Source: Kiloniellaceae bacterium (GTDB lineage: Bacteria; Pseudomonadota; Alphaproteobacteria; Kiloniellales; J153). From it: a stretch of DNA of 51,589 bases. Below are positions 3,582-37,200 of this stretch, piece after piece (the first letter of the stretch is position 1; every line of letters begins with the position of its first letter). The stretch spans positions 1 through 51,589 of the forward strand of contig JAJFGP010000020.1 in NCBI GenBank assembly GCA_021776055.1, read 5' to 3'. The notes under the pieces are model-generated. The model did not search any database and was not told the DNA's origin. It worked only from the letters and a program-made list of their open reading frames with translations. Made by a program: the position numbers and the translations under genes.

Positions 3582-3583
3582 GC

Positions 3584-7405: not shown

Positions 7406-8515
7406 GTGGCATACGATCTGGAACTGACCGGCGTCGAGAAGGTCTACGATAACGGCACGATGGCCGTTCGGAATTTTGACCTTCAAGTCGAGAAGGGTGA
7501 GTTCATTTCGTTCGTCGGTCCGTCCGGCTGCGGCAAAACGACCACCTTGCGCATGATCGCCGGATTCGAATCGATCACATCGGGTGAAATCCAGATTCGG
7601 GGTCGCCGTATTAACGAGTTGCCGGCGGAGCAGCGGCCGACCTCCACGATTTTTCAGAACTACGCGCTGTTTCCTCACATGACGGTGCGACAGAACATCG
7701 AATATGGCCTTTCGGTAAAGGGCTTTAAGGCGGCGCAACGCCGGGAAAAAGCGGAAGGGATCATGGCGAAGCTCGAGCTTCTCGAGGTCGCCGACCGCCG
7801 GCATGACGTTCTCTCGGGCGGGCAGCGGCAGCGCATCGCCTTGGCGCGGGGGTTGGCTGTTGAGCCGGATATCCTTTTGCTCGACGAACCGTTGGGCTCG
7901 CTCGATGCCAACTTGCGTAAGTCGATTCAGAACGAACTCAAGTTGCTGCAACGCAACCTCGGCATCACCTTTATTTTTGTCACCCATGCGCAGTCGGAGG
8001 CGCTGGTGCTATCCGATCGCGTCGTCGTCATGAATCGGGGCGAGGTCGAACAGATCAGCCCGCCTTACGAGCTATACACCCGCCCCAAGACAAGTTTCGT
8101 GGCCCAGTTCATCGGACGTAACACCAACATTCCCGGCACAATCAAAGACCGTGATGGAGACATCGTGGTCGTTGATACGATCTACGGAGCTTTGCGAGGG
8201 TTTCTGACCGACGGTGCCCTTGAAGACGGTGCGCAGGTCATCGCCGTGGTGCCATCGGAGGCGATCGACGTCCATCCCGACAGCATCGACCGGGAAGAAT
8301 TGGTCGGCCGCTATCAGGGCAATGTGGTGGAGGGGCAGGTTCGGGCCGCTTACGTGGTCGGCCACACCGTGTTCAATGCCATTGAACTCTCCGATGGCCG
8401 GGAGGTGAACATAGAGAGCCATATCGAGAAATACCGGAACGTATTCGAGACCGGCACATCGCGCGTCCACCTGACCTGGTTGCCCAACGAGGCAACAGTC
8501 ATTGGCAAGGGTTGA
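7406..8515 (+). CDS. ABC importer ATPase, PotA-like, canonical
   Basis: A 369-residue ATPase starting with GTG. All motifs are canonical: Walker A GPSGCGKTT (38-46), Gln 84 in the Q-loop, LSGGQ at 136-140, DE at 160-161 and His 194 in VTHAQ. A TOBE-type tail follows residue about 240. It is clearly related to the ATPase at 1557 but retains the switch histidine. Since there is only one pair of permease genes, the two ATPases either form a heterodimer or serve under different conditions. It follows the binding-protein gene after a hairpin and precedes the amidase. Confidence 0.93.
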   Translation: MAYDLELTGVEKVYDNGTMAVRNFDLQVEKGEFISFVGPSGCGKTTTLRMIAGFESITSGEIQIRGRRINELPAEQRPTSTIFQNYALFPHMTVRQNIEYGLSVKGFKAAQRREKAEGIMAKLELLEVADRRHDVLSGGQRQRIALARGLAVEPDILLLDEPLGSLDANLRKSIQNELKLLQRNLGITFIFVTHAQSEALVLSDRVVVMNRGEVEQISPPYELYTRPKTSFVAQFIGRNTNIPGTIKDRDGDIVVVDTIYGALRGFLTDGALEDGAQVIAVVPSEAIDVHPDSIDREELVGRYQGNVVEGQVRAAYVVGHTVFNAIELSDGREVNIESHIEKYRNVFETGTSRVHLTWLPNEATVIGKG

Positions 8516-16160: not shown

Positions 16161-17525
16161 ATGGGCATACGCACTCTTTTGATCGCCAACCGCGGGGAAA
16201 TTGCCGTCCGGATCATCCGGGCTGCGCGCGAACTGGGCATCCGCACCGTCCAGGTCCACAGCGATGCCGATACCGATTCCCTGGCGGTGCACATGGCGGA
16301 CGAAGCGGTGAACATCGGCCCGGCGCAGGCGGCGAAATCATATCTCAATGCCACGGCTATTCTTGAGGCCGCCGCCAAGACCGGCGCTGATGCCGTTCAT
16401 CCCGGCTACGGCTTTTTCGCGGAGAATGCGGCTTTCGCGGATGCGGTCGCTAAGGCGGACCTGATCTTTGTTGGTCCGGATGGCGATACGATTCGCTTGA
16501 TGGGCGATAAGGCCGCGGCGCGTGCGGCCGCGGCAGCGGCCGGTGTCCCCACGGTGCCCGGCAGTGATGGGCGGCTCGACGATCTTGTGGCCGCGCGGCG
16601 TCTGGTCGAGGAGATCGGCTTCCCGGTCATGATCAAAGCCGCGGCCGGCGGTGGCGGTCGGGGAATTCGGGTCGTTGCTGACATAGCGGAGTTCGACCGG
16701 ATGGCGCCTCAGGCCCAGGCAGAGGCAAAAGCGGCGTTCGGAGACGGCGGAATCTATATCGAAAAGTTTGTCGAGAAAGCGCGCCATATCGAGGTGCAGG
16801 TATTGGGCGACGGGAAGGACGTCATCCATTGTTACGAGCGCGAATGTTCGCTTCAGCGGCGGCGTCAGAAGGTCTGGGAAGAAGCGCCCTCCGCGACGCT
16901 ACCACAGAACGTCCGGGAAAAATTGTGTGCGGCTGCGGTGAAACTTGCCTCGGCGGTTAACTACCGCGGCGCCGGTACGATTGAATTTCTGTATGACGAC
17001 GAAACCGGCGATTTCAGTTTCATCGAGATGAACACCCGGATCCAGGTCGAGCATCCGGTGACCGAGATGATCACCGGGATCGATCTGGTGCGTGAGATGA
17101 TTCGGGTTGCGGCGGGAGAGCCGCTTCGTTTGAGCCAGGACGAGGTGCGCCTGCAAGGTCATGCGATCGAGGTCAGAATCAATGCCGAGGACCCGTCGAA
17201 AGACTTCATGCCGTTCCCCGGCGTGGTCGAAACGCTCACCGTTCCGGGCGGGCCGGGCGTTCGCTTCGACAGTATGCTTTACAGTGGTTATGCCATCCCC
17301 CCGTTCTACGACTCGCTGCTCGCCAAGCTGATCGTCCACGACGAAACGCGGGAGGCCGCGATTGAACGCCTGCGCCGCGCCCTCATGGAATTTGACGTAG
17401 GCGACCTCAAAACGACGAAGCCCCTATTCACAGCACTAGTGCGCGATGAAAACGTGCGGACGGGGGCGTTTCATACGCGCTGGCTTGAGCAATGGTTGGA
17501 TACGAATACAAGCCGGTTGGCATGA
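16161..17525 (+). CDS. accC: biotin carboxylase subunit
   Basis: A 454-residue ATP-grasp enzyme that carboxylates biotin with bicarbonate and ATP. NRGEIAVRI at the N-terminus, the GGGGRGI lid loop, FIEMNTRIQVEHPVTE and the C-terminal domain give a full-length biotin carboxylase. In the nucleotide-site segment the usual QRRHQK is QRRRQK: the position of E. coli His236 is Arg. Urea carboxylases also vary at this position, which fits a specialised paralogue. Flanked by the lone biotinyl protein and PxpB/PxpC, it would supply carboxybiotin to them, by analogy with urea carboxylase. Confidence 0.92.
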   Translation: MGIRTLLIANRGEIAVRIIRAARELGIRTVQVHSDADTDSLAVHMADEAVNIGPAQAAKSYLNATAILEAAAKTGADAVHPGYGFFAENAAFADAVAKADLIFVGPDGDTIRLMGDKAAARAAAAAAGVPTVPGSDGRLDDLVAARRLVEEIGFPVMIKAAAGGGGRGIRVVADIAEFDRMAPQAQAEAKAAFGDGGIYIEKFVEKARHIEVQVLGDGKDVIHCYERECSLQRRRQKVWEEAPSATLPQNVREKLCAAAVKLASAVNYRGAGTIEFLYDDETGDFSFIEMNTRIQVEHPVTEMITGIDLVREMIRVAAGEPLRLSQDEVRLQGHAIEVRINAEDPSKDFMPFPGVVETLTVPGGPGVRFDSMLYSGYAIPPFYDSLLAKLIVHDETREAAIERLRRALMEFDVGDLKTTKPLFTALVRDENVRTGAFHTRWLEQWLDTNTSRLA

Positions 17526-17544
17526 CAGGGAGAATGGTTGAGCG

Positions 17545-18420
17545 ATGAAAACCAGATACAGCTTCGGAGGAGACGAGCACATTTTCGTCGTGATGGACGA
17601 AGAGATGTCGCTCGATGCGTTTTTCAAAAGCCTTTCCATGACCAATGCTGTCCGTGCGGCGCAGATCGATGGTGTCACCGAGATATGCCCGTCCAACGCC
17701 AGTTTCCAGGTCAAGTTCGATCCGGACAAGATCGCGCCGGACGACATGCTGGCGGAGCTGAAGACTCTGGAAACCGCGGCGGAGAGCGCAGAGAGGCGCA
17801 TGAACACGCGGATCATCGAGGTTCCCGTGTTCTATCAAGATCCTTGGACGCACGAGACACTGATGCGGTTCCGCGAGCGGCATCAGGATCCGAACGGTAC
17901 GGATCTGGACTATGCGGCGCGCATCAACGGCTTCGATAGTGCCGCGGAGTTTATCACCGCGCACCATTCGTCGCCGTGGTTCGTGTCGATGGTCGGTTTC
18001 GTCGCCGGGTTGCCTTTCCTCTATCAGTTGGTGGAGCGCGCGCGCCAACTCGAGGTACCGAAGTACCTGCGGCCACGCACCGATACACCAAAGCAGACCG
18101 TTGGGTATGGCGGCTGCTTTTCCTGCGTCTATTCGGTGCGCGGTGCCGGTGGCTACCAGATGTTCGGCATTACGCCGATGACCATTTACGACCCCACGCA
18201 GACGACCTCGTACCTGCGGGACTTCCTGGTGTTCTTTAATCCAGGCGACATCGTCAAGTGGAAGCCGATTGACCGGGAAGAATACGACTCGATTCTGGCT
18301 GACGTTGAATCGAACCGCTACGAGCCGTTGGTCAAGGAGGTGGAGTTTGATCTAACCGCCTTCAATGCGGACATCGATGGCTACAACGCAAAGCTGATGG
18401 AGGCTCTCCATGGCGTTTAA
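17545..18420 (+). CDS. pxpB: 5-oxoprolinase subunit PxpB (KipI, AHS1 domain)
   Basis: A 291-residue protein of the KipI/allophanate-hydrolase-subunit-1 family. The conserved blocks are CPSNASFQVKFD near residue 50, the VPVFY strand near 92, GFVAGLPFL near 150 and the GYGGCFSCVY segment, which occupies the place of the usual GS.AI.. motif. The same domain forms half of the carboxyltransferase part of urea carboxylase. It is longer than many PxpB proteins (about 220-240 residues), with an extended C-terminus after residue 235. Its 3' end overlaps pxpC by 11 bases. Confidence 0.9.
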   Translation: MKTRYSFGGDEHIFVVMDEEMSLDAFFKSLSMTNAVRAAQIDGVTEICPSNASFQVKFDPDKIAPDDMLAELKTLETAAESAERRMNTRIIEVPVFYQDPWTHETLMRFRERHQDPNGTDLDYAARINGFDSAAEFITAHHSSPWFVSMVGFVAGLPFLYQLVERARQLEVPKYLRPRTDTPKQTVGYGGCFSCVYSVRGAGGYQMFGITPMTIYDPTQTTSYLRDFLVFFNPGDIVKWKPIDREEYDSILADVESNRYEPLVKEVEFDLTAFNADIDGYNAKLMEALHGV

Positions 18421-19381
18421 AGTCCTCAATCCAGGCCTTTTCACAACCGTTCAAGATCTCGGGCGGCCGGGATACTTCCATCTTGGCATTCCCATATCCG
18501 GTGCGATGGATCGTTTCGCCCTGCGCGCCGCCAACCTCCTCGTCGGCAACGACGAAGGTGCGGCCGCCCTCGAAAGCGTCTTCATGGGACCGCAGCTTGA
18601 ATTCGAGGTCGATGCGACGGTCGCCGTCACCGGTGCCGACATGCCCGCCCGCGTGGATGGCGAGGCGAAACCGGGTTGGACCGCGTTTAAGGTTCGTGCC
18701 GGACAGGTGCTCACCTTCGACTATTTGAAGGGCGGAGCGCGAATCTACATAGCGATATCCGGTGGCGTCGATACGCCGCCGTCGCTGGACAGCCGCTCCA
18801 CCTATCCGATCGGTGCCCTCGGCGGTGTGGAGGGTCGCCCCTTGGCGATTGGTGACATTGTGCCGCTGGGGAATGGCGTGGGCATCAAGGAAGGTCGAAG
18901 CGTTCCGGAAAATTTACGGCGCCTGCCGGGATCGCCGGTGGAGCTTCGGGTGCTGCCCGGCTTGTATTGGCGCTTGATTACGGAAGAGGCCGGACGAAAT
19001 TTTTTCGGCGACGAATGGACCGTAGCACCGGAGGCGGATCGAATGGGATATCGCTTCCGGGGTGGGCGACCCATCCAGTTCGAGGAGCGGAAACAACCGT
19101 TCGGCGCCGGTTCCGATCCGTCGAACATCGTCGACGGTTGTTATCCGTACGGATCGATTCAGGTGCCGGGTGGAACGGAGCCAATCGTCCTGCACCGCGA
19201 TGCCGTATCGGGTGGCGGGTATTTCACGCTCGGTGCGGTTATTTCGGCGGACATGGATCTTATCGGTCAACTTCAACCGCACACGCCGACGCGTTTTGTC
19301 AAAGTCGATATGAAGACGGCGCTGACCGCCCGGCACGACAGGCAATCTCTGCTTGGCAAAGTGCGAGCATCGCTAAGCTAA
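18410..19381 (+). CDS. pxpC: 5-oxoprolinase subunit PxpC (KipA, AHS2 domain)
   Basis: A 323-residue KipA/AHS2 protein, partner of PxpB. Recognisable blocks are LFTTVQDLGRPGY at the N-terminus, PISGAMDRFALRAANLLVGN, the AVTGADM strand, IAISGGVDTP and the terminal GYFTLGAVISADMDLIGQL. PxpB and PxpC together resemble the carboxyltransferase of urea carboxylase, so biotin carboxylase + biotinyl protein + PxpB + PxpC contain all modules of a split urea-carboxylase-like enzyme. The gene overlaps pxpB and is followed 28 bases later by the biotin transporter gene. Confidence 0.92.
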   Translation: MAFKVLNPGLFTTVQDLGRPGYFHLGIPISGAMDRFALRAANLLVGNDEGAAALESVFMGPQLEFEVDATVAVTGADMPARVDGEAKPGWTAFKVRAGQVLTFDYLKGGARIYIAISGGVDTPPSLDSRSTYPIGALGGVEGRPLAIGDIVPLGNGVGIKEGRSVPENLRRLPGSPVELRVLPGLYWRLITEEAGRNFFGDEWTVAPEADRMGYRFRGGRPIQFEERKQPFGAGSDPSNIVDGCYPYGSIQVPGGTEPIVLHRDAVSGGGYFTLGAVISADMDLIGQLQPHTPTRFVKVDMKTALTARHDRQSLLGKVRASLS

Positions 19382-21214: not shown

Positions 21215-21547
21215 ATGTGCAGCTTATGTGGACTCCTGGGGGAAGATCATTGGACCGACATGTCGGCCAACCCCGAGGCGTTTGGCGGGCGACAGGGCGT
21301 TATGCCACGGCGTCAGGAACGCTTCTACCGGGTGAAACTCATCAACGAAATTCTCAAGAGTTTCGCGCTACGCCTCGACGACTGGCAGGGCCAATCCTTC
21401 ATTTTGAGCAACCGGACCGGCAAAACCGAAATCGTCGACGATCTCATGGCGGTGTGGCCGGCGGCGGAGAAGATGATCGGGCGCCAGCTTGACCCGACGG
21501 ACCCGGCGCTGTTGGCACATCTTCGGCAACAGACGATGGGGCACTGA
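21215..21547 (+). CDS. small conserved protein with N-terminal CxxC, next to CobW GTPase
   Basis: A 110-residue protein beginning MCSLCGLLGEDHWTD. I do not know a function. Visible features are the N-terminal Cys-x-x-Cys with a nearby GEDHW, a basic middle (RRQERFYRVKLIN) and no signal peptide or membrane segment. It ends six bases before the CobW-family gene, so the pair is probably co-translated; as I recall, proteins of this look often accompany CobW GTPases. A metal-client or metal-relay role is a speculation from the Cys pair and the neighbour. Confidence 0.75.
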   Translation: MCSLCGLLGEDHWTDMSANPEAFGGRQGVMPRRQERFYRVKLINEILKSFALRLDDWQGQSFILSNRTGKTEIVDDLMAVWPAAEKMIGRQLDPTDPALLAHLRQQTMGH

Positions 21548-22609: not shown

Positions 22610-22654
22610 GGTGAAATCTATTCGCTAGGGCATAAGACAGCGAGGAGCATGGCA

Positions 22655-24415
22655 ATGTCGAGAAAAGTCGATCCCATTACACTGTCGGTGGTTCGTGGAG
22701 TCTTGGAAACAACGCAACGCGAAATGACAGTGGCGCTGGAGAAGACCGCTCGGTCCAGCGTCTTTAACCTGGCGCATGACTACTCGAATGCGATTTTCAA
22801 TCACACCCCCGAGATGATTATGCAGGGGCAGGATATTCCTATCCACCTTGGCTCACTGATTCCAGCGATGAAATGCGTGGCCGGGTATTTCGGGGACGAC
22901 ATCCATCCCGGAGATGTGATTCTGCATAACGACCCCGCCTACATGGGGTCGCACATGATCGACACCTGTATGTACAAGCCGGTGTACTACAACGACGAAC
23001 TCGTTTTCTGGACGGTGTGCAAAGGACACCTTACGGATATCGGCGGTCCTGTTCCGGCGGGCTACAACCCGGATGCCAAGGAACTCTATGCCGAGGGACT
23101 TCGTATCCCCCCGGTGAAGATATTCGATAAGGGAGTGAAGCGCTACGACGTGATGAATCTTATTCTCACGAACCTGCGTGCGCGCCGCGATCAAGAAGGC
23201 GATTTCAATGCGCAGCTTGGTGCCGTGCAGGTGGGCGAGCGGAACCTAATTGCCCTGCTCGATAAATACGGCATCGACGTCGTGCGCGCCTGTATCGACG
23301 AGCTCATGGCGATGGCGGACAGGCAAATGCGTTCGCTGATGCGCAGCGTTCCCGACGGCGTTTATGTCGGTAAGGCGATCGTTGAGGATGCCGGACATGG
23401 CCTTGGTGACATGGAGATTACCGGGACGGTAACCATCAAGGACGACACCTGCCATATCGATATCGTTAGCCCACCGCAGGTGCCGTACTTCATCAATTCC
23501 TATGAGGGTAACTCGTACTCGGGTGTTTATCTCGGGGTGATGATGTTTGCCCAGTTACCGCCACCCTACAACGAAGGTCTCTATCGTTGCGTCAGTGTCG
23601 ACATGGGTCCGAAGGGCACGCTCTGCAATGCTAAGGAACCGGCCCCTCATATGAACTGTACGACAACGCCAATGGAGACTTTGGCGGATGCCGTGCGTCT
23701 CGCCTTCGAACAGGCGGCGCCTGAGCATGTCTCCGCATCCTGGGGGCACGCCAACGGCTGCAATATCGCCGGCTGGGATACGCGCCACGACGAAGAGTAC
23801 GTAACGATGGTTCTTGCCTCTATCATCTCGGGGGCAGGAGCGACGCCGCTGCAGGACGGTTGGCATGCGTGCGGTCCGGAATGTTGCTTCGGGGCTCTAA
23901 CGTCGGGCGATGTCGAGCTTCTCGAATATTCCTATCCCATCATCATTCACCGCTACGGCCTGATGACCGATTCGGGCGGTGCGGGAAAGTTTCGGGGCGG
24001 TTCGGGAACCTGTTGGGAAGTCGAGCCTTTGGACAAGCCCATGACGTTTATCACTTTCGGCGAGGGCCGGCGTATCCCGGCGATGGGCGCGGCGGGCGCA
24101 ACGTCCAAGCTTGTGGAATCCAAGGTGGGGCGCATCGAGATCAGCCGCGGCGGCGAGGTCGAGATCGTGAAGAAGAATATTATCGAGACCATAGAACCGG
24201 GTGAGCGGGCCGCGAACATGAACCCCGGTGGGGGCGGTTATGGCGAGGCCTTCGAACGACCCGTCGACAAGGTGGTTTGGGACGTCAAGAACGGCCTGGT
24301 TTCTCTTGAGGGAGCTCGAGGGGATTACGGAGTCGTAATCCTCGATCCCGAATCGCTTGAGGTCGATACGGCCGCGACCAGTGCGCTTCGCACGCAACCG
24401 GCCGCGGCCGAATAG
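22655..24415 (+). CDS. hyuB: HyuB-type subunit (copy 2)
   Basis: A 586-residue second HyuB, clearly diverged from copy 1 (for example LHNDPAYMGSHMIDTCM where copy 1 has IHNHPYYGASHSPDIAV). N-terminal DPITLSVVRG and C-terminal NPGGGGYGEAFERP fit the family. GAGGAG gives a seven-base spacing to the ATG at 22655, so the earlier ATG at 22649 is less likely. Here HyuB precedes HyuA, the reverse of copy 1, so the pair is not a recent tandem duplicate. A separate substrate or a second ring-opening/carboxylation step is likely. Confidence 0.93.
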   Translation: MSRKVDPITLSVVRGVLETTQREMTVALEKTARSSVFNLAHDYSNAIFNHTPEMIMQGQDIPIHLGSLIPAMKCVAGYFGDDIHPGDVILHNDPAYMGSHMIDTCMYKPVYYNDELVFWTVCKGHLTDIGGPVPAGYNPDAKELYAEGLRIPPVKIFDKGVKRYDVMNLILTNLRARRDQEGDFNAQLGAVQVGERNLIALLDKYGIDVVRACIDELMAMADRQMRSLMRSVPDGVYVGKAIVEDAGHGLGDMEITGTVTIKDDTCHIDIVSPPQVPYFINSYEGNSYSGVYLGVMMFAQLPPPYNEGLYRCVSVDMGPKGTLCNAKEPAPHMNCTTTPMETLADAVRLAFEQAAPEHVSASWGHANGCNIAGWDTRHDEEYVTMVLASIISGAGATPLQDGWHACGPECCFGALTSGDVELLEYSYPIIIHRYGLMTDSGGAGKFRGGSGTCWEVEPLDKPMTFITFGEGRRIPAMGAAGATSKLVESKVGRIEISRGGEVEIVKKNIIETIEPGERAANMNPGGGGYGEAFERPVDKVVWDVKNGLVSLEGARGDYGVVILDPESLEVDTAATSALRTQPAAAE

Positions 24416-24437
24416 TGGTGGGGGAAGGAGGTTAGTC

Positions 24438-26516
24438 ATGCGTACAAAATACCGTTTGGGTGTTGACGCCGGAGGCACTTTCACCGACTTCGTGCTGGCC
24501 GATAACACGGGAAACGTCAGGCTCTACAAAGCGCTTTCGACACCAGATGACCCGACTAAAGCGATCAAGAACGGATTGGATTTGATTGCCGAAGATCTTT
24601 TGGCCAGTCCTCGCGACATCGTCTCCGGGTGCGATCTTTGCATCAACGGTACCACGGTCGGCCTTAACGCACTCATCCAGCACAAGGGCGTGAAAACCGG
24701 CCTGATCTGTACGTCCGGCCATGAGGACTCGATCGAGATTCGTCTCGGTCACAAGGAGGATGGGTATCGTTACGATGCCGAATACCCGCCGGCGGTGATG
24801 CTGGTCCCGCGATATCTGCGTGCCGCCATTCGCGAGCGCATACTTTCAACTGGAAAAACGCAAACGCCCCTCCATGAGGAGGACGTGCGGGCGGCGTGCG
24901 ACCTCTTCATCAAGGAAGGTGTCCAGGCTGTCGCAATTTCCTTCGTCTGGTCCGTGCTAAATCCGGATCATGAGCGGCGCGCGGCGGAAATTGTCCGGGA
25001 AATGATGCCAGATGTCTTTCTCACCGTTGGAGGTGAGCTTTATCCTCAGGTGCGCGAATATACACGGACGTCCACGGCGATCACCAATGCGTATCTTGGG
25101 CCGATTCTCAAGAAGTACGTGAAATCCATCGACCACTACTTCGCCGAGCTTGGCGCAAAATATCCAGTCAGGTACTTTCAGTCGAACGGTGGTCTTGCGA
25201 TTGGCCAGGCGATGAGTGACCGCTCGGTCTACGCGATCAATTCGGGCCCCGCGTCAGCGCCACAGGCGGGGCTTTACGTCGCCAATCCCTTCGACAAGAA
25301 GGACGTAATCACCGTCGATATGGGCGGCACGTCATTCGACATTACGCTTACCAAGGATGGCGTTACCAATCTCAACAAGAATATCGATTTCTTGCGGTAC
25401 CGCATTGGCGTTCCGATGATTCAGGTTGAAACACTTGGTGCGGGCGGTGGCTCGATTGGGTGGATAGACGAGATGGGGCTGCTTCAGGTCGGACCGCAGA
25501 GTGCCGGCGCCGATCCGGGACCGGCTTGCTATGGCCAGGGAGGTGCGGAACCGACGGTGACCGATGCCAATGTGATCCTGGGCTATGTCAACCCCACCGC
25601 GTTGCTTGGCGGGCGCATGTCGCTCGATAAGCAAAAAGCGTATGACGCCGTTAAGGCGCGCATTGCGGATCCGCTGGATTTATCGGTCGAGCGAGCGGCT
25701 TATGGCATGTTTACGATCGTCAACAACAACATGGTCAACGGCATTCGCCGTGTGTCGGTGGAACGGGGCTATGATCCTCGCGATTTCGTCTTGGTTGCGG
25801 CCGGTGGCGCAGGGGCCGCGCACATCACGGCACTTGCCACCGAGATGGGTGTGGATACCGTGCTTGTCCCGAAACTTGCTTCGGGGCTGTGCGCTTTTGG
25901 TCAGATCATCTCCGATGTGAAATACAACTATATGGCTTCCGCGCCGCTCCGCCTGGAAGGCGTGGCGGCCTATGACCGCCTCAATAGTCTCTACAAGGAG
26001 ATCGAGGGTCAGGGGGTGCAGCATCTCGAGGCGGACGGCTTCGAACGCGATCGCATAGACATTACGCGTAGCGTCGACATGCGTTATGTCGGTCAGGTTC
26101 ATGAATGCACTGTGGAAATCGGTAATTTTGAGATTAGCGAAGACACGGTAGATAAGGTGAAGAACGCATTTCATGGCCGCCACGAGCAACTCTATACCTA
26201 TTCCGAACCTCACAACGCGGTCGAGGTCGTCAATATCGAAAGCACGCTCTATGGCCGTGTCGACAAGCCACAGCCACCTCGGCTTGGCGGTGGTGGGAAT
26301 GCGGAGGCGGCTATCATGTTACGCCGGCCGATGATTTTTTCTGCCGACGGATCGGCTATCGAAGGGCCTGTCTATAACGGTGGAATGCTGGGTGCAGGCG
26401 ACGAGATTCCCGGTCCGGCAGTGATCGAGGAAGAGACGACCACGATCGTGATCGAGCCGGGTTGGCACGCCAAACTTCACGAGAGCGGTTCCTATGTTCT
26501 TCGACGCGACGCCTAA
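24438..26516 (+). CDS. hyuA: HyuA-type subunit (copy 2)
   Basis: A 692-residue HyuA. The phosphate loop DAGGTFTDF is near residues 9-17, the NGTTVGLNAL motif near 70-80, DMGGTSFD near 296 and AAGGAGAAH near the end of the ATPase domain. The ATG at 24438 follows GGAAGGAGG. Compared with copy 1 the first motif has Ala instead of Val and the LGHKEDGYR segment replaces the RHKRP block, so substrate preferences probably differ. It forms the ATP-using partner of the preceding HyuB. Confidence 0.93.
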   Translation: MRTKYRLGVDAGGTFTDFVLADNTGNVRLYKALSTPDDPTKAIKNGLDLIAEDLLASPRDIVSGCDLCINGTTVGLNALIQHKGVKTGLICTSGHEDSIEIRLGHKEDGYRYDAEYPPAVMLVPRYLRAAIRERILSTGKTQTPLHEEDVRAACDLFIKEGVQAVAISFVWSVLNPDHERRAAEIVREMMPDVFLTVGGELYPQVREYTRTSTAITNAYLGPILKKYVKSIDHYFAELGAKYPVRYFQSNGGLAIGQAMSDRSVYAINSGPASAPQAGLYVANPFDKKDVITVDMGGTSFDITLTKDGVTNLNKNIDFLRYRIGVPMIQVETLGAGGGSIGWIDEMGLLQVGPQSAGADPGPACYGQGGAEPTVTDANVILGYVNPTALLGGRMSLDKQKAYDAVKARIADPLDLSVERAAYGMFTIVNNNMVNGIRRVSVERGYDPRDFVLVAAGGAGAAHITALATEMGVDTVLVPKLASGLCAFGQIISDVKYNYMASAPLRLEGVAAYDRLNSLYKEIEGQGVQHLEADGFERDRIDITRSVDMRYVGQVHECTVEIGNFEISEDTVDKVKNAFHGRHEQLYTYSEPHNAVEVVNIESTLYGRVDKPQPPRLGGGGNAEAAIMLRRPMIFSADGSAIEGPVYNGGMLGAGDEIPGPAVIEEETTTIVIEPGWHAKLHESGSYVLRRDA

Positions 26517-26566: not shown

Positions 26567-27502
26567 ATGGAAGCGGTCGTCAATGTGGTCATCCCGGTCT
26601 TCGCGGTGATCCTGAGTGGATATGGCGCGGGACGGTTTGGCATTCTGGGCCCGGCAAGTAGCGAGGCGCTCAATCGCTTCGTCTATTTTGGAGCGCTGCC
26701 GCCGCTTCTTTTTGTATCGATGGCCAGTGTCGCGCCCGCGGCAATTTTCAACTGGTCCTTTGTCAGCGCCTATCTGGGCGGAATTCTCATCGTCTCGGCA
26801 TTATCGTTTTTCTTGTCGAAATTCCTGTTCGGGCACGATTTGCCGTCGTTGAGCATCCATGGAATGACGGCGATCTATGGAAACACCGGCTATATGGGCA
26901 TCCCGCTTTCCCTGGTGGCGTTCGGCCCCGAAGCGGTGGTGCCGGCCGCGGTCGCCACGGTGATCAACAGTGCCATCGTCATCGGGGTTGTCACGGCGCT
27001 TGTCGAGGTCGGACAAAACAAGGCGCAAGGATTGACCGTCGGGCGTGACGTTCTGCGCGCCCTAATACGCAACCCCCTTCTTATTGCCTCTCTGGGGGGT
27101 ATCGCCATATCGATCATCGGTTTGTCGCTGCCTACACCGATTGAGACTTTCTGCCGGATTCTTGGAGGTGCGGCCGGCCCTGGCGCCTTATTTGCCATCG
27201 GTCTTTTTCTTGTCGGCCGGTCATTCCGCGGGCATGCCGGTGAAGTTGCGACCATGGTCTTGCTGAAGCTTGTGGCGCAACCGATCGTCACATTGGCGCT
27301 TGTGATGGCATTTTTCCCCATGGACCCGTTGTGGGCTGGTATGGCGATACTTCTGGCAGCCCTGCCAAGTGGTGCAAATATTTTCGTTATTGCCCAACGC
27401 TATGGTACCTACGTTGAGCAGTCGTCGTCGGCGATCCTGTTTTCCACATGTGTTTCGGTCGTTTCCATAGCCTTGATCCTTGCACTCATGGGTGAGGGGT
27501 AA
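26567..27502 (+). CDS. AEC (auxin efflux carrier) family permease
   Basis: A 311-residue secondary transporter with about ten transmembrane helices in two repeats of five, as expected for the AEC/BART group. The segment GNTGYMGIPL in the first half and the ALPSGANIFVIAQRYG segment in the second half are typical discontinuous-helix regions. The ATG at 26567 follows AGGAG by five bases; an in-frame start at 26462 would lie within hyuA. Known members move malate, auxin-like acids and other anions. In this cluster it may export or import a carboxylate product of ring opening. Confidence 0.88.
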   Translation: MEAVVNVVIPVFAVILSGYGAGRFGILGPASSEALNRFVYFGALPPLLFVSMASVAPAAIFNWSFVSAYLGGILIVSALSFFLSKFLFGHDLPSLSIHGMTAIYGNTGYMGIPLSLVAFGPEAVVPAAVATVINSAIVIGVVTALVEVGQNKAQGLTVGRDVLRALIRNPLLIASLGGIAISIIGLSLPTPIETFCRILGGAAGPGALFAIGLFLVGRSFRGHAGEVATMVLLKLVAQPIVTLALVMAFFPMDPLWAGMAILLAALPSGANIFVIAQRYGTYVEQSSSAILFSTCVSVVSIALILALMGEG

Positions 27503-27552
27503 AGGAAATCCATGGACCACCGAGACTGCGGTTATCCGAAGGAGACCTGGGG

Positions 27553-28806
27553 ATGGTGAAACGGGGCGAAAAGCAGAAGCTGGCTTCGCCCAACGTTCGG
27601 ACCGCCGGCAAGCCGGTCCTCCGGGTGCTGGGCACCGGCGTGACGCTTATCGAGCAGATTAAACAAAGAGCCGAGAAAGACCTTGGTATCGGCTTACAGT
27701 TCGAGATTCTCGACGGTGTTGCGGCGCAAGCCAAGGGGGTGATGCAGCCGGGCAGTTATGACGTCTACGATCAGTGGTTTCACAGTGTCGAGTTGCTTTG
27801 GCTGTCCGGTGCCATTCAGCCCATAGATATCGGCCGAATCGAGCTTTGGAACGAGGTCAACACGCTGGCTAAGGAGGGGCGGTTGACGCCGGATGCCCGC
27901 TTCGGATACGGAGACAATCCGGTGAACCGACTCTACGTGCATCCAGGGCGCGGTTTGGGGCGGGAGCCCAACGGCAAGATTAGCATGCTGCCGGGTGCTC
28001 ATAATGTGGACAGTTTCGCCTACAATCTGGAGGAGGTTTCCGCCGGCGTGCCGTATCAGACGGAAAGTTGGGGATGGTTGCTCGACGACCAATGGAGAGG
28101 CAAGGTTGCTCTGGTCAACGACCCGGCGATCGGAGTCATCGATGCCGCCCTGGCGGCCGAAGCGCAGGGGCTGATGAGCTTCGCGAATGCCGGCAATATG
28201 ACGCTCGAGGAAATTGACTGCCTCATCGATATCCTATTGGAAAAAAAGAAGGCAGGGCATTTCAAAGCCTTTTGGAATTCTTTCGCGGAAGCGGACGAGT
28301 TCATGGCGCGTCGCGACGTGGTGATCGAGAGCATGTGGTCGCCGAGCGTGACGCGACTCAAGGCGCGCGGTATTCCGGTGCGATATGCCGCGCCTAAGGA
28401 AGGTTACAGGGCGTGGCAGGGCGGGATGTGCATCTCGTCGCGCACCGAAGGCCGTGTTCTAGATGCAGTCTATGATTACCTCAACTGGTGGATGTCCGGT
28501 TGGCCGGGCGCAATGATGGCGAAGCAGGGGTATTATTTTTCGGTCCCCGACCGTATCCGCGATCACCTGTCCGACAATGAATGGGCCTACTGGTACATGG
28601 GAGAGGAGGCCGCAAGCGATCTACCTGGTCCCAATGGCCTCGTTGTCGCGCGGGCCGGTGAGCGCCGGGACGGTGGGTCCTACTGGAAACGATTCGCCAA
28701 CATCGGTGTGTGGAACTCGATCATGGACGAGCACAACTACCTCGTGCGACGTTGGCAGGAACTGACAGCGTCGAATGGTACGTCGGCAAGCCGCGCCAAA
28801 AGGTAG
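27553..28806 (+). CDS. PotD-like substrate-binding protein without signal peptide
   Basis: A 417-residue homologue of the Tat-exported binding protein at 6064; both share PKEGYRAW and the QGYY segment. The start MVKRGEKQKLAS is hydrophilic and no upstream in-frame sequence supplies a hydrophobic leader, so as written the protein should remain in the cytoplasm. The binding-protein fold seems complete. Possibilities are an intracellular sensor or carrier of the imported compound, a protein exported by an unusual route, or a decayed leader. It is the last gene of the catabolic cluster and ends 38 bases before a convergent cytochrome gene. Confidence 0.88.
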   Translation: MVKRGEKQKLASPNVRTAGKPVLRVLGTGVTLIEQIKQRAEKDLGIGLQFEILDGVAAQAKGVMQPGSYDVYDQWFHSVELLWLSGAIQPIDIGRIELWNEVNTLAKEGRLTPDARFGYGDNPVNRLYVHPGRGLGREPNGKISMLPGAHNVDSFAYNLEEVSAGVPYQTESWGWLLDDQWRGKVALVNDPAIGVIDAALAAEAQGLMSFANAGNMTLEEIDCLIDILLEKKKAGHFKAFWNSFAEADEFMARRDVVIESMWSPSVTRLKARGIPVRYAAPKEGYRAWQGGMCISSRTEGRVLDAVYDYLNWWMSGWPGAMMAKQGYYFSVPDRIRDHLSDNEWAYWYMGEEAASDLPGPNGLVVARAGERRDGGSYWKRFANIGVWNSIMDEHNYLVRRWQELTASNGTSASRAKR

Positions 28807-32282: not shown

Positions 32283-33998
32283 TTAGTCAGCTAACGTGAA
32301 GGCAATGATGTTATTGCCCCGCTTGTAGTTGAGTTGGGTGTTTCCACCCGCGGCAACGACGACATATTGCTTGCCGTCCACCGTGTAGGACGAGGGCGGC
32401 GCATTGACACCGGCGCCGGCCTGGAACTTCCAGAGCACGGACCCGGTCTCGGAGTCGTACGCCTTGAACAGGCCGTTGCCTTCACCGGTAAAGACCAGCC
32501 CGCCGGCTGTCGCCATGATGCCGCCGATCATCGGCTGTGCGGTCTTTACCTTCCAGCGGATCTTGCCGGTGTTGTAGTCGACCGCGGTGACGTTGCCCCA
32601 CTGTTCCTCCGACGGGATCACCTTGAAGGCGCCGCCCAGCCACAGTTTGCCTTCCGGATAGGGTGAGTTCTCCACATGGTAGGTCATCGGCTGGTGCAGG
32701 TTGATGGCGTAGGCCAGCCCCAAATTCTCGTCGACCGTCATGGGCGACCATTCGACGCCGCCGTTGGCGCCCGGCAGCATCCGCGCGCCCTCGGCCGTTG
32801 GCAGAACCCACATGTTCTCCTGCGGCACCATGGCCTCGGAGTAGCGGACCAAGCTGCAATCGCGCCGGTCATGGACGTAGACGTGACCGGTCTTGCCGCC
32901 GTGCAGCAGTCCCGGCACCATCTTGCCATCCTTGTCCTTCACATCAACCAGGATCGGCGGGCTCACCGCGTCCAGGTCCCAGACGTCATGGGCGATGTAC
33001 TGGAAATGACACACGTATTCCCCGGTATCCAGGTCCACGGAAACCAGCGAGTCGGTGTAGAGGTTGTCGCCGGGGCGGATACCACCATCCAAATCGGGCG
33101 AAGGATTGCCCACAACAAAGAAAATGCGGTTCAAATCCTTGTCGACGGCTGGGTTCTGCCAGACGCCGCCGCCCAAGGTCTTATAGGGATCGCCTTGTGC
33201 GGCCAGCGTCGCCTTTTCTGCCGCGATATCGCGCAGCATGTCGCGGCCGGTGGCATCATGGGTCGCCCAGACGCCCACGGAGTTTTCCGGAATGGTGTTG
33301 AAGGTCCAGAGTAAATCCCCGGTCTTCGCATCGAAGGCTTTGACGAAACCGCGGATGCCGTACTCGCCACCGTTGGTCCCGATGAGGATTTTGCCGTTCA
33401 CCGCCGTTGGGGCCATGGTTTCGCTGTAGCCCAACTCGGGATCGGCGATTTGCTTCTCCCAGACGACCTTGCCGGTCTTGGCGTCGAGGGCCACCAGCTT
33501 AGCATCCAGCGTACCCAGATAAACCATATCGCCATAAACGGCGACGCCACGGTTATTCGGGCCGCAGCAATAGGTCGTGATTGGTCCCATCTTGTGCTTG
33601 TAGTGCCAAATCTGCTGACCGGTGGCCGCGTTTAACGCATAGGCGTGGCTGAACGATGTGGTGACGTACATGATCCCGTCCACGACGATGGGCGACGTCT
33701 CCATGGACTCCACCACCTCGGTCTGGAAAATCCAGGCCGGGCGCAACTCACCCACATTGGACGTGTTGATCTGCCGCGACGGGTAGTAGCGCGTCTGCGC
33801 GTAGTTGCCGTTGGTGTGTAGGAAATTGTTCCCGTCACCGGCTGCCCTGTCCAACAGATCCTGGGTAACGGTCCGCATATCGCCATACAGCGTTCCGCCG
33901 GTAACCTCCTGGGCTTTAACAGCGAGTGGAGATACCGCGAAAAAAACAATGCCGGCCACGGCCGCGAGGGCGGGCCGAATCAGAGATCGAAACGACAT
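32283..33998 (-). CDS. PQQ-dependent alcohol dehydrogenase, lanthanide type (XoxF/ExaF/PedH-like)
   Basis: A 571-residue periplasmic quinoprotein with a signal peptide (cleavage near AVKAQ, residue 30). The vicinal disulfide that stacks on PQQ is Cys144-Cys145, metal ligands are Glu212 (GGEYGIRG) and Asn298 (VGNPSPD), and the catalytic Asp341 is followed by Asp343 in WDLD. The second Asp marks lanthanide enzymes; calcium enzymes have Ala or Ser there. Repeated propeller blocks such as [16 protein letters not shown] are present. The ATG at 33998 follows GGGAGGAT; a longer frame to 34253 is not conserved. It is downstream of pqqABCDE on the same strand. The substrate may be a multi-carbon alcohol rather than methanol. 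Confidence 0.92.
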
Positions 33999-34108
33999 CT
34001 TGGAGATCCTCCCATAATCATCGATTGATGAATTTTTATGCGGCGTTCTCTCGACGCCTTGGTCGTTAACCATAATGCTAGCGCGGATCGGCTCTCCCGG
34101 ACAACGGA

Positions 34109-35230
34109 CTAACGCCGATGCTGGTAATTTGGCGCGCCGGAAGCGGCGCTGTCTTCGGCCATGGCCACTAGCAGATCGTGGTTCGGCGATAGGGCGCAGA
34201 CCGGATCGGTCGCGGCGGCATCGCCTGTAATAGCGAAGGCCTGGCAACGGCAACCGCCAAGATCGCGATCGCGAAATTCACAAGACTGGCAGGGTTCCGG
34301 CATCCAATCGGTGCCGCGAAAGCGTTGGAAGGCTGGGTCCTGGCGCCAGATCCAATCCAGCGTGTGATCTCGCAAGGACGAGAAGGTCATGCCGGTGATG
34401 GTCTCGGCGGCATGGCACGGCAGCACCAGGCCACGCGGCGTGATCGCAAAGAATTGATTGCCCCAGCCGTCCATGCAGCGCTTGGGGCGCCGCGCGTAAT
34501 AGTCGGGAACCACATAGTCGATCACCATGCGGCCGCGATAGGTCTCGCTCGCCGTTGCCGCTGCCGCATTGGCGCGCGCGACTTGATCGGCGGTCGGCAT
34601 AAGGGCGGCGCGGTTCCGCAAGGCCCAGCCGTAATACTGCACGTGGGCGATTTCCAGACGGTGGGCGCCAAGCCCCGCCGCCAGATCGATGATGGCCTCC
34701 AGATGATCGAGGTTCTGGCGATGTACGACGGCGTTCACGGTCAACGGCAAGCCGGCTTCGCGCACCCACGCGGCAACGGCTAGCTTCTTGGTGTGCCCGT
34801 TCTTGTAGTTTGCAATGCGATCGGCGTTCGCTGCTTCGTTATCCTGGATCGAGAGTTGCAGATGGTCGAGACCGCTCTCCTTATAGGTTTGAATCTTTTC
34901 GGGGGTTAGCAGCACGCCCGCGGTGATCAGGTTGGTATACAGGCCGTTCTCGCGCGCCGCCGCGATCAGCTCGGGCAGATCGGTGCGGGCCGTCGGCTCG
35001 CCACCGGAAAGATGGATTTGCAAGACCCCCAGCGCCGCCGCCTGGCGGAAGATATCCACCCATTCCCCGGTGCTCAGCTCATCACTGCGGCGTGATAGGG
35101 CCGTAGGGTTGGAGCAGTAAGGGCATTGCAGCGGGCAGCGATGGGTCAGCTCGGCCAGCATGGCCACCGGCGGCCGCTGCCCGGCGCTGGTGGTCTGCTT
35201 GGTGGGCGCCTCAAGGCTGGTCATCGACAA
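34109..35230 (-). CDS. pqqE: PqqE, radical SAM enzyme of PQQ synthesis
   Basis: A 373-residue radical SAM protein. The 4Fe-4S SAM-cluster cysteines are C32, C36 and C39 in [16 protein letters not shown] follows. The C-terminal SPASM region shows further cysteines (LPCHAAE, CQSCEF, GCRCQAF) for auxiliary clusters. PqqE joins Glu and Tyr side chains in PqqA, assisted by PqqD. It overlaps pqqD by 20 bases, so translation is coupled. It is the last gene of the pqq operon; the dehydrogenase gene follows 110 bases later. Confidence 0.96.
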
Positions 35231-35513
35231 TCTCGAGGAAATTCTTTTCCGCCAAGAGTCTTAGCACGGTTAGGACGTCGTGTTGGATCACATCTGCGGG
35301 CGCGTCGTATTCCTCGGCCAGCCGGGCCGCGATCTCGCTAACCGTGACCGCCCCGGTCGCGCGGTCGAGAATCTCCTTACCGGTCTCGTCCAGGACCAGA
35401 ACCCGCTCGGGCGCCTGCAAGATCCAACGCTCGCGCGCCTTGTCGAACTCGACACGGACGAAATCCGCGAGTTTGGGACGGCTTTCCTCGGTAATCGCTT
35501 CCGCCACGGTCAT
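35211..35513 (-). CDS. pqqD: PqqD, PqqA peptide chaperone
   Basis: A 100-residue PqqD. It binds the PqqA peptide and presents it to PqqE. The segments ERVLVLDETGKEILDR and VSEIAARLAEEYDAP are the typical RiPP-recognition winged-helix blocks. It begins 11 bases after the pqqC stop and overlaps pqqE. The length is close to the normal 90-100 residues. Confidence 0.95.
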   Translation of the reverse strand: MTVAEAITEESRPKLADFVRVEFDKARERWILQAPERVLVLDETGKEILDRATGAVTVSEIAARLAEEYDAPADVIQHDVLTVLRLLAEKNFLEIVDDQP

Positions 35514-35524
35514 GGGGCCCTCCC

Positions 35525-36268
35525 TCAGGTGTCCGGTGTAGAAACGCTGGGTACAAAAGCGCCAGATGGTGGCAGCTTTGGGTCGACATAGGCAAAATGG
35601 AGCGCATCGAGCTGGGCCCAGAGGACATCGGTCTTGAAGAGCAAGGCATCGCAGACGGCCTGGCGCTTTTCGATCGTATCGGCGTGGGTTTTGACATAGT
35701 CGAGTGCGAAATCGGCATCACGCGGTGCTTGGGTCAAGCGCGCGTCAAAATAGATCAGGGCATCTTCATCGATGAAGTCGTACTGGGCCAACAAACCCGC
35801 GGTCCGCTCGCCGATGATGGTGGGTGCGAACATCTCGGTAAGCGAGGACGCAATAGCTTCCAGCAAGGGCCGCTCGCGTACGAAGTGGACGTAAGCCTCG
35901 ACCGCGAAGCGGGTGGCCGGCAGGATGCCGTGTTCGGCGCGGACCATGGCCGGATCTAGACCGAGACGTTCGCAAAGATGCAGCCAGCGGCTGATGCCGC
36001 CTTGCCCCTCGCGGGTACCGTCGTGATCGATGACCCGTTGCGACCAGATGCGCCGCAAATCCGGGTCGATCAGGCGCGCCATAATCGCCGAATCTTTGAT
36101 CGGGATACGGCTTTGATACAGGTAGCGATTGAGCGCCCAGGCCTGGATTTGCCCCTTGTCGAGCTTGCCGTCACGCATCAGGGCGTGAAAGGGGTGATTG
36201 TTGTGATAGCGCTCGGCGCCGATTTGGCGCAGCCGGGCTTCCAGGGCGCTTGCTGAATCCAGGTTCAT
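35525..36268 (-). CDS. pqqC: PqqC, pyrroloquinoline-quinone synthase
   Basis: A 247-residue all-helical oxidase that performs the last ring closure and oxidation to PQQ with O2. Conserved blocks are RYHNNHPFH near residue 20, ALNRYLYQ, DHDG.REGQGGI and PTIIGERTAGLL. The ATG at 36268 overlaps the pqqB stop (ATGA); an upstream in-frame extension to 36763 lies in pqqB and is not conserved. It acts in the cytoplasm, after which PQQ is exported to the periplasmic dehydrogenases. Confidence 0.95.
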   Translation of the reverse strand: MNLDSASALEARLRQIGAERYHNNHPFHALMRDGKLDKGQIQAWALNRYLYQSRIPIKDSAIMARLIDPDLRRIWSQRVIDHDGTREGQGGISRWLHLCERLGLDPAMVRAEHGILPATRFAVEAYVHFVRERPLLEAIASSLTEMFAPTIIGERTAGLLAQYDFIDEDALIYFDARLTQAPRDADFALDYVKTHADTIEKRQAVCDALLFKTDVLWAQLDALHFAYVDPKLPPSGAFVPSVSTPDT

Positions 36269-37200
36269 GGCAGCGTGATTTCCAAGCCGTCTTCGGCCAC
36301 CTGCCAGCCGGCGGCGGCTAGTTCGGTCCGTTCGGGGCTGTCGCCCAGCAACGCCGGATTTGTGTTGTTGATATGGATGAAGACCCGCCGTCCGATGTCG
36401 AGATCGGCGAGCGCCGCCATGGACCCTTCCGGCCCGGCCATGGAGATGTGGCCCATCCGCTGGCCGGTTTTCACGCCTTCTCCGCGGGTGACCATCTCGT
36501 CGTTGCGCCACAACGTCCCGTCGAAAAACAGCAGGTCGGCGCCGGCGCAGCGCGCCCGCACCGCCTCGTCGACGGCCGCGCAATTGGCGATAAAGACCAG
36601 GCGGCCGGTCTGGCCCTCGTGGGTAATCTCCAGGCCGATGGTATCGCCCTCCTGGGTGCCGAAGTTCTCGCCGTCGCCGGTTGTTTCCATGTAGAGCGCG
36701 ACCTTTCCGGGCACGGCGAATGGGGTTACGCGCAGGCCGCTGTCCACGCCGTCGGGCCCGCATAGGGCCGTGGTCGCACCGGTCGATAGTGTCTCGCGCG
36801 TGACCACATCGGGTGCGAGAACCGAGAAGATCGGATTGGCGTCAAGCACGCTCAAAATCCGCGCGTGAGCATAGATTCTGTAGGGCGTCCGCTCGCGCAA
36901 ATGCAGCAGTCCGGCGACCGCGTCCACATCGCCATTGGTCAGGACGATCCCGGCGATGGGCGACGAGCGAAGGCCGTCGGTGGGATGAAGTTGCGGTTGG
37001 CGGTTGATCTGCTCGCGCAAATCCGGCGCCGCGTTGATTAGAAACCAGTGGTGGCCGTCAGCGCTCACGCCGATCGACGCCTGTGTTGCCGGGCGCGCAA
37101 AAGGGTCGCCGACGCGCGCACGGCGACAGGCTTCGCTGTTGCTGTTCCACTGGGGAAAACCGCCCCCGGCGCCCGCGCCCAAAACAAGTACGCGGATCAT
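36265..37200 (-). CDS. pqqB: PqqB, metallo-beta-lactamase-fold hydroxylase of PQQ synthesis
   Basis: A 311-residue PqqB. The start MIRVLVLGAGAGGGFPQWN and the late motif HINNTNP are diagnostic. PqqB is reported to be an iron-dependent hydroxylase acting on the Glu-Tyr intermediate. No Shine-Dalgarno sequence precedes the ATG at 37200; the bases right before it are the arm of a hairpin (37201-37227), so its translation probably depends on the upstream pqqA or on opening of the hairpin. Confidence 0.95.
   Translation of the reverse strand: MIRVLVLGAGAGGGFPQWNSNSEACRRARVGDPFARPATQASIGVSADGHHWFLINAAPDLREQINRQPQLHPTDGLRSSPIAGIVLTNGDVDAVAGLLHLRERTPYRIYAHARILSVLDANPIFSVLAPDVVTRETLSTGATTALCGPDGVDSGLRVTPFAVPGKVALYMETTGDGENFGTQEGDTIGLEITHEGQTGRLVFIANCAAVDEAVRARCAGADLLFFDGTLWRNDEMVTRGEGVKTGQRMGHISMAGPEGSMAALADLDIGRRVFIHINNTNPALLGDSPERTELAAAGWQVAEDGLEITLP

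Follow-up and report, generated by a model that had tools for sequence, protein, structure and literature searches.

A conserved leaderless PotD/YdcS-like binding protein linked to a tandem-HTH GntR-type regulator in Alpha-, Beta- and Gammaproteobacteria

Introduction

Leaderless binding proteins that act with regulators are already known. NasS, an ABC-type binding protein without the leader of its relative NrtA, is predicted to be cytoplasmic and controls NasT, and the amide-sensing binding protein AmiC of P. aeruginosa holds AmiR in a ligand-responsive complex (sections of PMC3795266). SgrR and DsvR are transcription regulators that use a solute-binding protein (SBP) domain (excerpts of PMC13060122). 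A sequence-only reading of the locus described here had called a cytoplasmic role for this fold hardly described, and these systems show that it was mistaken. In an SBP survey, around 1% of the retrieved proteins were predicted to be cytosolic, and the AmiC-AmiR paper is cited there for cytosolic single-domain proteins (excerpts of PMC9602780). NspS is a PotD homologue that serves as a periplasmic sensor for the membrane receptor MbaA (sections of PMC9993111).

The DNA analysed here (the window) is 51,589 nt long and carries a gene for a leaderless PotD/YdcS-like solute-binding protein of the SBP_bac_8 type. As outlined in the sections mentioned, the NasS-NasT system of Paracoccus and Azotobacter is alike in plan, a leaderless binding protein controlling an assimilation operon through a regulator, but it differs in its nitrate/nitrite ligand, its kinship to NrtA and its RNA-binding ANTAR partner, where the window has SBP_bac_8 and GntR. 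AmiC-AmiR belongs to an amide catabolism with chemistry similar to that of the window's gene island. AmiC has the type I binding fold and an ANTAR partner, whereas the proposed partner in the window is, by Pfam, a GntR protein with an FCD domain. In common with such leaderless regulatory SBPs, the window protein has exported homologues, lacks a leader and is encoded by a gene linked to that of a cytosolic regulator, here GntR plus FCD in place of an ANTAR protein. SgrR and DsvR differ in joining an HTH and SBP_bac_5 on one chain, whereas the leaderless group would use two proteins and SBP_bac_8. NspS-MbaA and TorT-TorS, with a binding protein as periplasmic sensor for a membrane receptor, parallel an exported, kinase-linked clade described below; their membrane partner faces the periplasm, while the partner proposed for the leaderless group is cytosolic. 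A literature search on cytoplasmic or leaderless SBPs, with or without GntR, or on SgrR, returned nothing relevant within a coverage that mostly leaves out subscription papers. What is new is a stand-alone SBP_bac_8 protein with a proposed GntR partner, and a paired change, in both compartment and partner, from one sister group to the other.

Results

A conserved binding protein without an export signal

The leaderless gene (27553–28806, plus strand) encodes 417 aa and starts with MVKRGEKQK. An in-frame TGA stop (27493–27495, plus strand) lies 60 nt upstream. Of the 19 codons that separate it from the ATG at 27553, none is ATG, GTG or TTG (CTG occurs at 27526 and 27547), and they encode no hydrophobic stretch. 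A Shine-Dalgarno-like AAGGAG (27539–27544, plus strand), 8 nt before the ATG, provides a good ribosome site. The absence of an in-frame leader, first read from the letters, is upheld by this stop codon and the lack of a start codon before the ATG. A test for Sec, Tat and lipoprotein export signals was negative, unlike typical SBP_bac_8/PotD-type proteins.

The protein matches Pfam PF13416 with 39.7 bits (cut-off 27), as do three of four other leaderless relatives, the fourth (L102) falling narrowly below at 26.9. Its AlphaFold2 model (pLDDT 90.6) has disordered residues 1–17, a mature domain from about residue 20, and a full-length, two-lobed, type-II binding fold, aligning with YdcS (6nlp; Z 33.7, rmsd 2.7, 328 aligned) and PotD (1pot; Z 30.7, rmsd 2.9, 318 aligned). 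The protein is thus full-length and PotD-like, as had been proposed. Identity to YdcS, PotD and PotF in structure alignments is 14–17%, and the closest solved structure to the profile by sequence is YdcS 6nlp (E 2.4e-11). YdcS, PotD and PotF are exported proteins; the fold is common to all over the whole domain.

A wrong start, a frameshift, a sequencing error or a decaying gene could each produce an apparently leaderless protein. Another frame upstream is indeed open, but it belongs to the gene of an AEC-family membrane carrier (PF03547; 26462–27502, plus strand, start probably at 26567) that ends 50 nt upstream, and no RR-plus-hydrophobic leader that could be joined was found in any of the three frames from 27300 on. 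Five orthologues from related genera (80–88% identity) are all leaderless, and dN/dS against them is 0.067–0.094, indicating strong purifying selection. Leaderless starts recur in independent genomes of many genera, and in relatives the start is fixed by overlap with the stop codon of a GntR gene (see below). An artefact was rejected on these grounds. The leaderless SBP is confirmed as a real, conserved protein without an export signal and, judging from its sequence, is most plausibly cytoplasmic.

Orthologues and loss of the leader

A genome scan gave 73 loci, with a match at E 0.001 or better in 50 of 58 related genomes, mostly to distant paralogues. The leaderless group of PotD/YdcS-like (SBP_bac_8) proteins spans Alpha-, Beta- and Gammaproteobacteria; the Planctomycetota, Bacteroidota and Bdellovibrionota labels of some MAG contigs may reflect contamination. 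A near-identical leaderless locus also occurs on two contigs labelled Rhodopirellula and Marinobacter (L097, L098), by contamination or recent transfer.

Leaderless proteins have short N-terminal extensions (MVKPREKSK, MVAAPLVKDST) or start right at the mature domain, as in L116 and L119, which begin MITLRVLGTSVT with a stop a few codons earlier. The leader was absent from all six leaderless loci read individually (L116–L121), and RR leaders and a kinase match were present in all five loci read from the tier with SBP scores of 477–517 bits (L122–L126). The exported proteins most similar to the leaderless SBP (48–54% identity) are kinase-linked proteins of other bacteria, in which a twin arginine was found in 15 of 18 rows and a hydrophobic leader without it in the remaining three (L048, L064, L100). 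Signal peptides are therefore missing from one whole group and present in its sister clade, and orthologues do not uniformly carry one at this site.

In a tree of 82 rows, the 18 kinase-linked exported rows form one clade (support 100/99) and the 56 leaderless rows one group with weak support (86/43), leaving 8 other exported rows. Two changes, the fewest possible, account for the three tree labels, compared with a mean of 23.9 for shuffled labels; the labels were based in part on the partner. Rows were labelled TatHK on a kinase match, with L048 and L106 added by hand; TatABC was assigned by hand to L019–L024, L031 and the exported protein of the window, and all remaining rows were called leaderless. 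Leader state, read separately, agrees with the labels except for L044, which reaches the contig end, leaving its start unsure and its state undecided. L106 and L108 (both short) and six duplicate genomes were left out before tree building, and L111 (a 52-residue match) was not used.

The end of the leader (APxV...LRVLGT) is still recognisable in many leaderless proteins, for example as SPNVRTAGKPVLRVLGTGVTL in the window protein compared with APWVHTAGKPKVRVLGTHVTL in L046. This suggests that the leaderless group arose from an exported ancestor by losing the n- and h-regions of the leader; since the root is a midpoint, the direction, loss as opposed to gain, rests on the exported outgroups. The leaderless and kinase-linked groups share the same residue, conserved to at least 95%, at 46 positions, among them W75, D153, E220, W241, R286 and W288. 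Residues 73, 262 and 291 are fixed but different, being D, W and G in 50/50 leaderless rows and E, F and V in 18/18 kinase-linked rows.

The window also encodes a Tat-exported SBP (6064–7311, plus strand) with a twin-arginine leader in which SRRDIL precedes a hydrophobic stretch. The leaderless protein had been described as its paralogue; PKEGYRAW is common to both, but the relationship is distant (113/391 identical residues, 29%; E 3e-52). An origin of the leaderless SBP from this local Tat protein was considered and rejected, given the 29% identity and the distance between the two in the tree.

Linkage to a GntR-type regulator

By neighbour clustering, a gene for an FCD-containing GntR protein was found next to the leaderless genes (one cluster, c9, was set aside as a possible antisense artefact of the simple gene caller). 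The window's member, the proposed partner, lies at 3–938 on the minus strand, its 3′ end cut by the contig edge. It has two GntR HTH stretches (PF00392, 63.2 bits in 2 stretches) and FCD (PF07729, 47.5 bits), and scored 381.8 bits against the family model. Aligned with 21 relatives, it shows a second HTH region that is conserved across the 22 proteins; by Pfam, GntR and FCD were found in 6/6 relatives scanned and a second GntR stretch in 2/6 (L061, L087).

The GntR gene was inside the fetched locus in 44/56 leaderless rows (319.8–492.8 bits, 24 of the 44 matches coming from rows outside model building) and in 0/26 other tree rows. The 44 loci comprise 22 convergent arrangements, 13 with GntR upstream on the same strand, 6 upstream on the opposite strand and 3 downstream on the same strand. 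Twelve leaderless rows had no GntR in the locus. One of these (L009) is the window genome, where the regulator is at 3–938, about 26 kb from the leaderless SBP, the two genes standing at opposite ends of one lactam/amide island. Among the other 11 genomes, a strong match (378–441 bits) was found in 10, the exception being the MAG G441. Leaderless SBP and GntR thus occur in the same genome in 55/56 tree rows. In L039, L041 and L043, both genes are on one contig (48406, 177506 and 194746 nt), about 26, 25 and 16 kb apart. The L041 protein, from Pelagibius litoralis DSM 21314, is an orthologue with 84% identity to the window's leaderless SBP.

At E 1e-30 or better, GntR was found in 0/20 kinase-linked genomes and in 0/16 further genomes with SBP scores of 477–517 bits; five leaderless genomes included as positives in the latter search were all found. 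Among 398 phylum genomes, seven have an SBP of at least 528 bits, and GntR reaches at least 320 bits in six, all within those seven, five other genomes reaching only 211–265 bits; the lines of 320 and 528 bits were drawn once scores were known, and the true partner L066 scores 319.6–319.8. The seventh genome (G778), whose SBP (at least 528 bits) is leaderless, had no GntR among all 58 candidates scored, and G441 had none although all of its first-look candidates were scored. That first look scored 4–5 candidates per genome in the class and phylum samples, so misses are possible. The class sample of 385 genomes says little on co-occurrence, because just two (G000, G152) have an SBP of at least 528 bits; both have a strong GntR, and the order of G152 is represented by one genome.

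Where GntR lies upstream on the same strand (13 loci), the distance from its stop to the SBP start falls between −8 and +11 nt in 12 loci, and the genes overlap in seven of the 13 (L066, L069, L070, L073, L083, L084, L093). This overlap fixes the start codon of the leaderless SBP in relatives and, on sequence grounds, suggests that GntR and SBP are co-translated there. Convergent gaps range from −65 to +97 nt among the 19 of 22 loci listed. Over 33 loci, pairwise distances correlate at r = 0.967 for SBP-GntR, 0.904 for SBP-PotA, 0.766 for SBP-PotB and 0.942 for GntR-PotA; over 44 loci, the SBP-GntR value is 0.953, reached by 0/500 permutations.

The relatives of the leaderless SBP are exported, mostly via Tat, a pathway that can also translocate proteins without a leader when they are bound to one that has it, so the protein might still reach the periplasm by a non-classical route or as a passenger. 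This is highly improbable: the periplasm-facing kinase of the sister clade was unmatched (E 1e-30) in 56/56 leaderless loci, 40 of them with at least 5 kb on both sides and no kinase in any, and the linkage is to a cytosolic DNA-binding protein. Cytoplasmic sensing, the role first suggested for the protein, is favoured, with the regulator linkage as its support; nothing was found specifically for the buffering role proposed beside it, or ruling it out.

The exported sister clade and its histidine kinase

A kinase ORF starts within −66 to +64 nt of the end of the SBP match in 17/18 rows of the exported sister clade, the 18th (L048) having just 495 nt of downstream sequence. No PotA/B/C match was found within about 6 kb in 10 kinase-linked loci (0/10). 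The N-terminal part of the kinase was modelled for L051 from 16 aligned sequences (pLDDT 87.6). It resembles the ligand-binding domain of McpS (Z 20.9, rmsd 2.2, 223 aligned) and TorS (Z 17.9, rmsd 3.0, 217 aligned), bearing in mind that helical bundles match easily. The TorS structure is a complex with the binding protein TorT, and that of McpS has malate and succinate bound directly. The clade thus has the arrangement of a receptor pair, an SBP gene beside that of a receptor with a predicted McpS/TorS-like sensor domain (one modelled). Such adjacency is not proof of partnership, as the products of neighbouring SBP and kinase genes in P. aeruginosa (AgtB/PA0602-AgtS and PA4985-AruS) did not bind when tested (excerpts of PMC11113362).

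The predicted compartment of the binding protein matches that of the signalling partner in both groups, leaderless with GntR and exported with a membrane histidine kinase. The family may accordingly have moved as a sensor between compartments, retaining a conserved residue set while pairing with a kinase outside and a tandem-HTH GntR inside, an idea whose odds are put just short of even.

The gene island

Divergent from the GntR gene is a gene for a PotA-like ABC ATPase (1557–2636, plus strand), followed by PotB-like (2655–3581, plus strand) and PotC-like (3482–4435, plus strand, true start probably later) permeases, both named from sequence and from the cluster c3 gene order in relatives. A second, different PotA-like ATPase is encoded at 7406–8515, and the island shows one permease set and one exported binding protein; the names of the permeases and the second ATPase come from sequence and clusters, not from domain scans.

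The region between the GntR and PotA genes holds two candidate operators with a putative regulatory role. The first (1297–1321) surrounds the palindrome TTGCATGCAA (1305), a candidate GntR site whose conservation is seen when four related intergenic regions are aligned with that of the window; the second (1158–1195) is an inverted repeat centred on TTTGTATACAAA (around 1172). The motif TTGYATRCAA is present in this region, in 4/7 related stretches and in just 2/55 leaderless loci (L078, L105), and is thus clade-limited. Within the window it occurs only at these two sites, with none beside the leaderless gene.

Downstream lie a biotin carboxylase (AccC-like) and a carboxyltransferase-domain pair (PxpB/PxpC-like) at 16161–19381, and CapB-like (22649–24415; NF050157, 1123.1 bits, cut-off 1000) and CapA-like (24429–26516; NF050156, 1248.5 bits, cut-off 1000) ATP-dependent lactamase beta and alpha subunits, all on the plus strand. 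The CapA/CapB-like pair (22649–26516) is above the NCBI caprolactamase cut-offs and lies in an alphaproteobacterial island. Other plus-strand genes of the island encode two short-chain dehydrogenases, an amidase, hydantoinase/oxoprolinase subunits, an FMN oxidoreductase, a LamB/YcsF protein, BioY, a deacetylase-type hydrolase and a CobW GTPase. A 110-aa protein (21215–21547; cluster c21) without a Pfam or NCBIfam match is kept in six clustered loci, often beside a CobW GTPase gene. The leaderless gene had been taken for the last of the cluster; among the plus-strand genes of the island it does come last, but the window continues with other genes, including, at 32283–37200 on the minus strand, PQQ-type dehydrogenase, radical-SAM/SPASM, TENA/PQQC-family and beta-lactamase-superfamily genes that form a PQQ dehydrogenase and synthesis cluster.

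An island with CapAB-like, hydantoinase/oxoprolinase and biotin-dependent carboxyltransferase enzymes could also house a binding protein as a component of its pathway, either a cytosolic carrier or store passing a scarce or unstable imported compound on to the ATP-dependent lactamase/oxoprolinase-type enzymes or an enzyme itself, with GntR merely the island's regulator. MqnA/MqnD and THI5 are cytosolic enzymes built on the binding-protein fold, and since GntR genes are often beside catabolic genes, the linkage could reflect shared regulation alone. The enzymes vary (HydB-type in 5/40, amidase in 9/40, PxpC in 12/40) across the 40 leaderless loci that extend at least 5 kb each way, and any PotA/B/C match is found in 31, whereas GntR is present in 35; the gene overlap is with GntR, and the exported sister clade is adjoined by a kinase. 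A role within the pathway is consequently considered rather unlikely.

Control loci and a second leaderless type

Forty lower-scoring SBP loci from the class and phylum samples were used as controls. A leader was present in 38/40, with RR in all 38; PotA or PotB was matched within 3 kb in 36 of these. GntR matches within the same distance peaked at 72.1 bits across the 40 loci, 14 of which reach E 1e-5.

Two loci of one genus, L163 and L164 (about 3000–4150 on the SBP strand), are 36–37% identical to P0001 and apparently leaderless, and by score fall outside the leaderless group. Within 3 kb of them, neither a GntR of this kind nor a kinase or PotA/PotB match was found, and L163 adjoins an amidohydrolase-like gene (named from sequence), a point in favour of a catabolic component. 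They possibly represent a separate, second loss of export. Leader loss can thus occur without a GntR partner, and the two loci weaken the rule that leaderless means GntR outside the leaderless group.

Because of these loci, sensing through GntR and the idea of a move between compartments were given slightly less weight, and more was given to a cytosolic receptor or buffer that serves another partner and makes no contact with GntR. G778 and G441, without a GntR match, also speak for such a protein, as does the FCD domain of GntR, which may bind an effector of its own. It remains quite improbable, as GntR co-occurs in 55 of the 56 leaderless rows, the GntR and SBP genes overlap, and the distance correlation is highest for GntR.

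Predicted ligand class

The ligand is guessed to be a lactam, an amide or an opened omega-amino acid, from the island's lactam/amide enzymes and from P. jessenii, in which four ABC binding proteins, two of spermidine/putrescine type, were induced on caprolactam (sections of PMC6061476). Polyamines are unlikely and were rejected as ligand. The NspS pocket has W261 and, two residues on, the aspartate D263 (sections of PMC9993111). The position corresponding to the polyamine-binding aspartate, equated through profile alignment to PotF, is 290. Among 50 leaderless rows it is occupied by G in 41, S in 8 and A in 1, and in kinase-linked rows by G (18/18), so that the aspartate two residues after the pocket tryptophan is missing. 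Arg286 is invariant in 68/68 rows.

Discussion

The reading preferred here is that the leaderless SBP is a cytoplasmic ligand receptor that works with the tandem-HTH, FCD-type GntR protein, with a probability of roughly 0.55 for a proposal in which location, ligand and interaction are all predicted. That the SBP would modulate GntR is proposed because no outside role is left for it and the DNA-binding partner is in the cytosol. A lactam- or amide-type compound, or its opened product, would be imported, probably via the PotABC-type transporter and its own Tat-exported SBP, and the leaderless SBP would close on it in the cytosol. The ligand-loaded protein would then alter GntR activity at the divergent GntR/PotA promoter region, in a presumed direction of control by which the catabolic island would be expressed only after substrate entry.

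If this is true, the locus would encode an intracellular sensor built from two proteins, with GntR as the DNA-binding regulator and a stand-alone type-II binding protein as the subunit that reads the ligand. Some database entries named 'ABC transporter substrate-binding proteins' may then be cytosolic regulators, a point also made for NasS (sections of PMC3795266). Should the ligand be confirmed, the leaderless SBP could be used as a lactam or amide biosensor. For the family, the two groups would constitute a natural experiment in which a nutrient-binding protein was turned into an intracellular sensor, paired outside the membrane with a kinase and inside it with a DNA-binding regulator.
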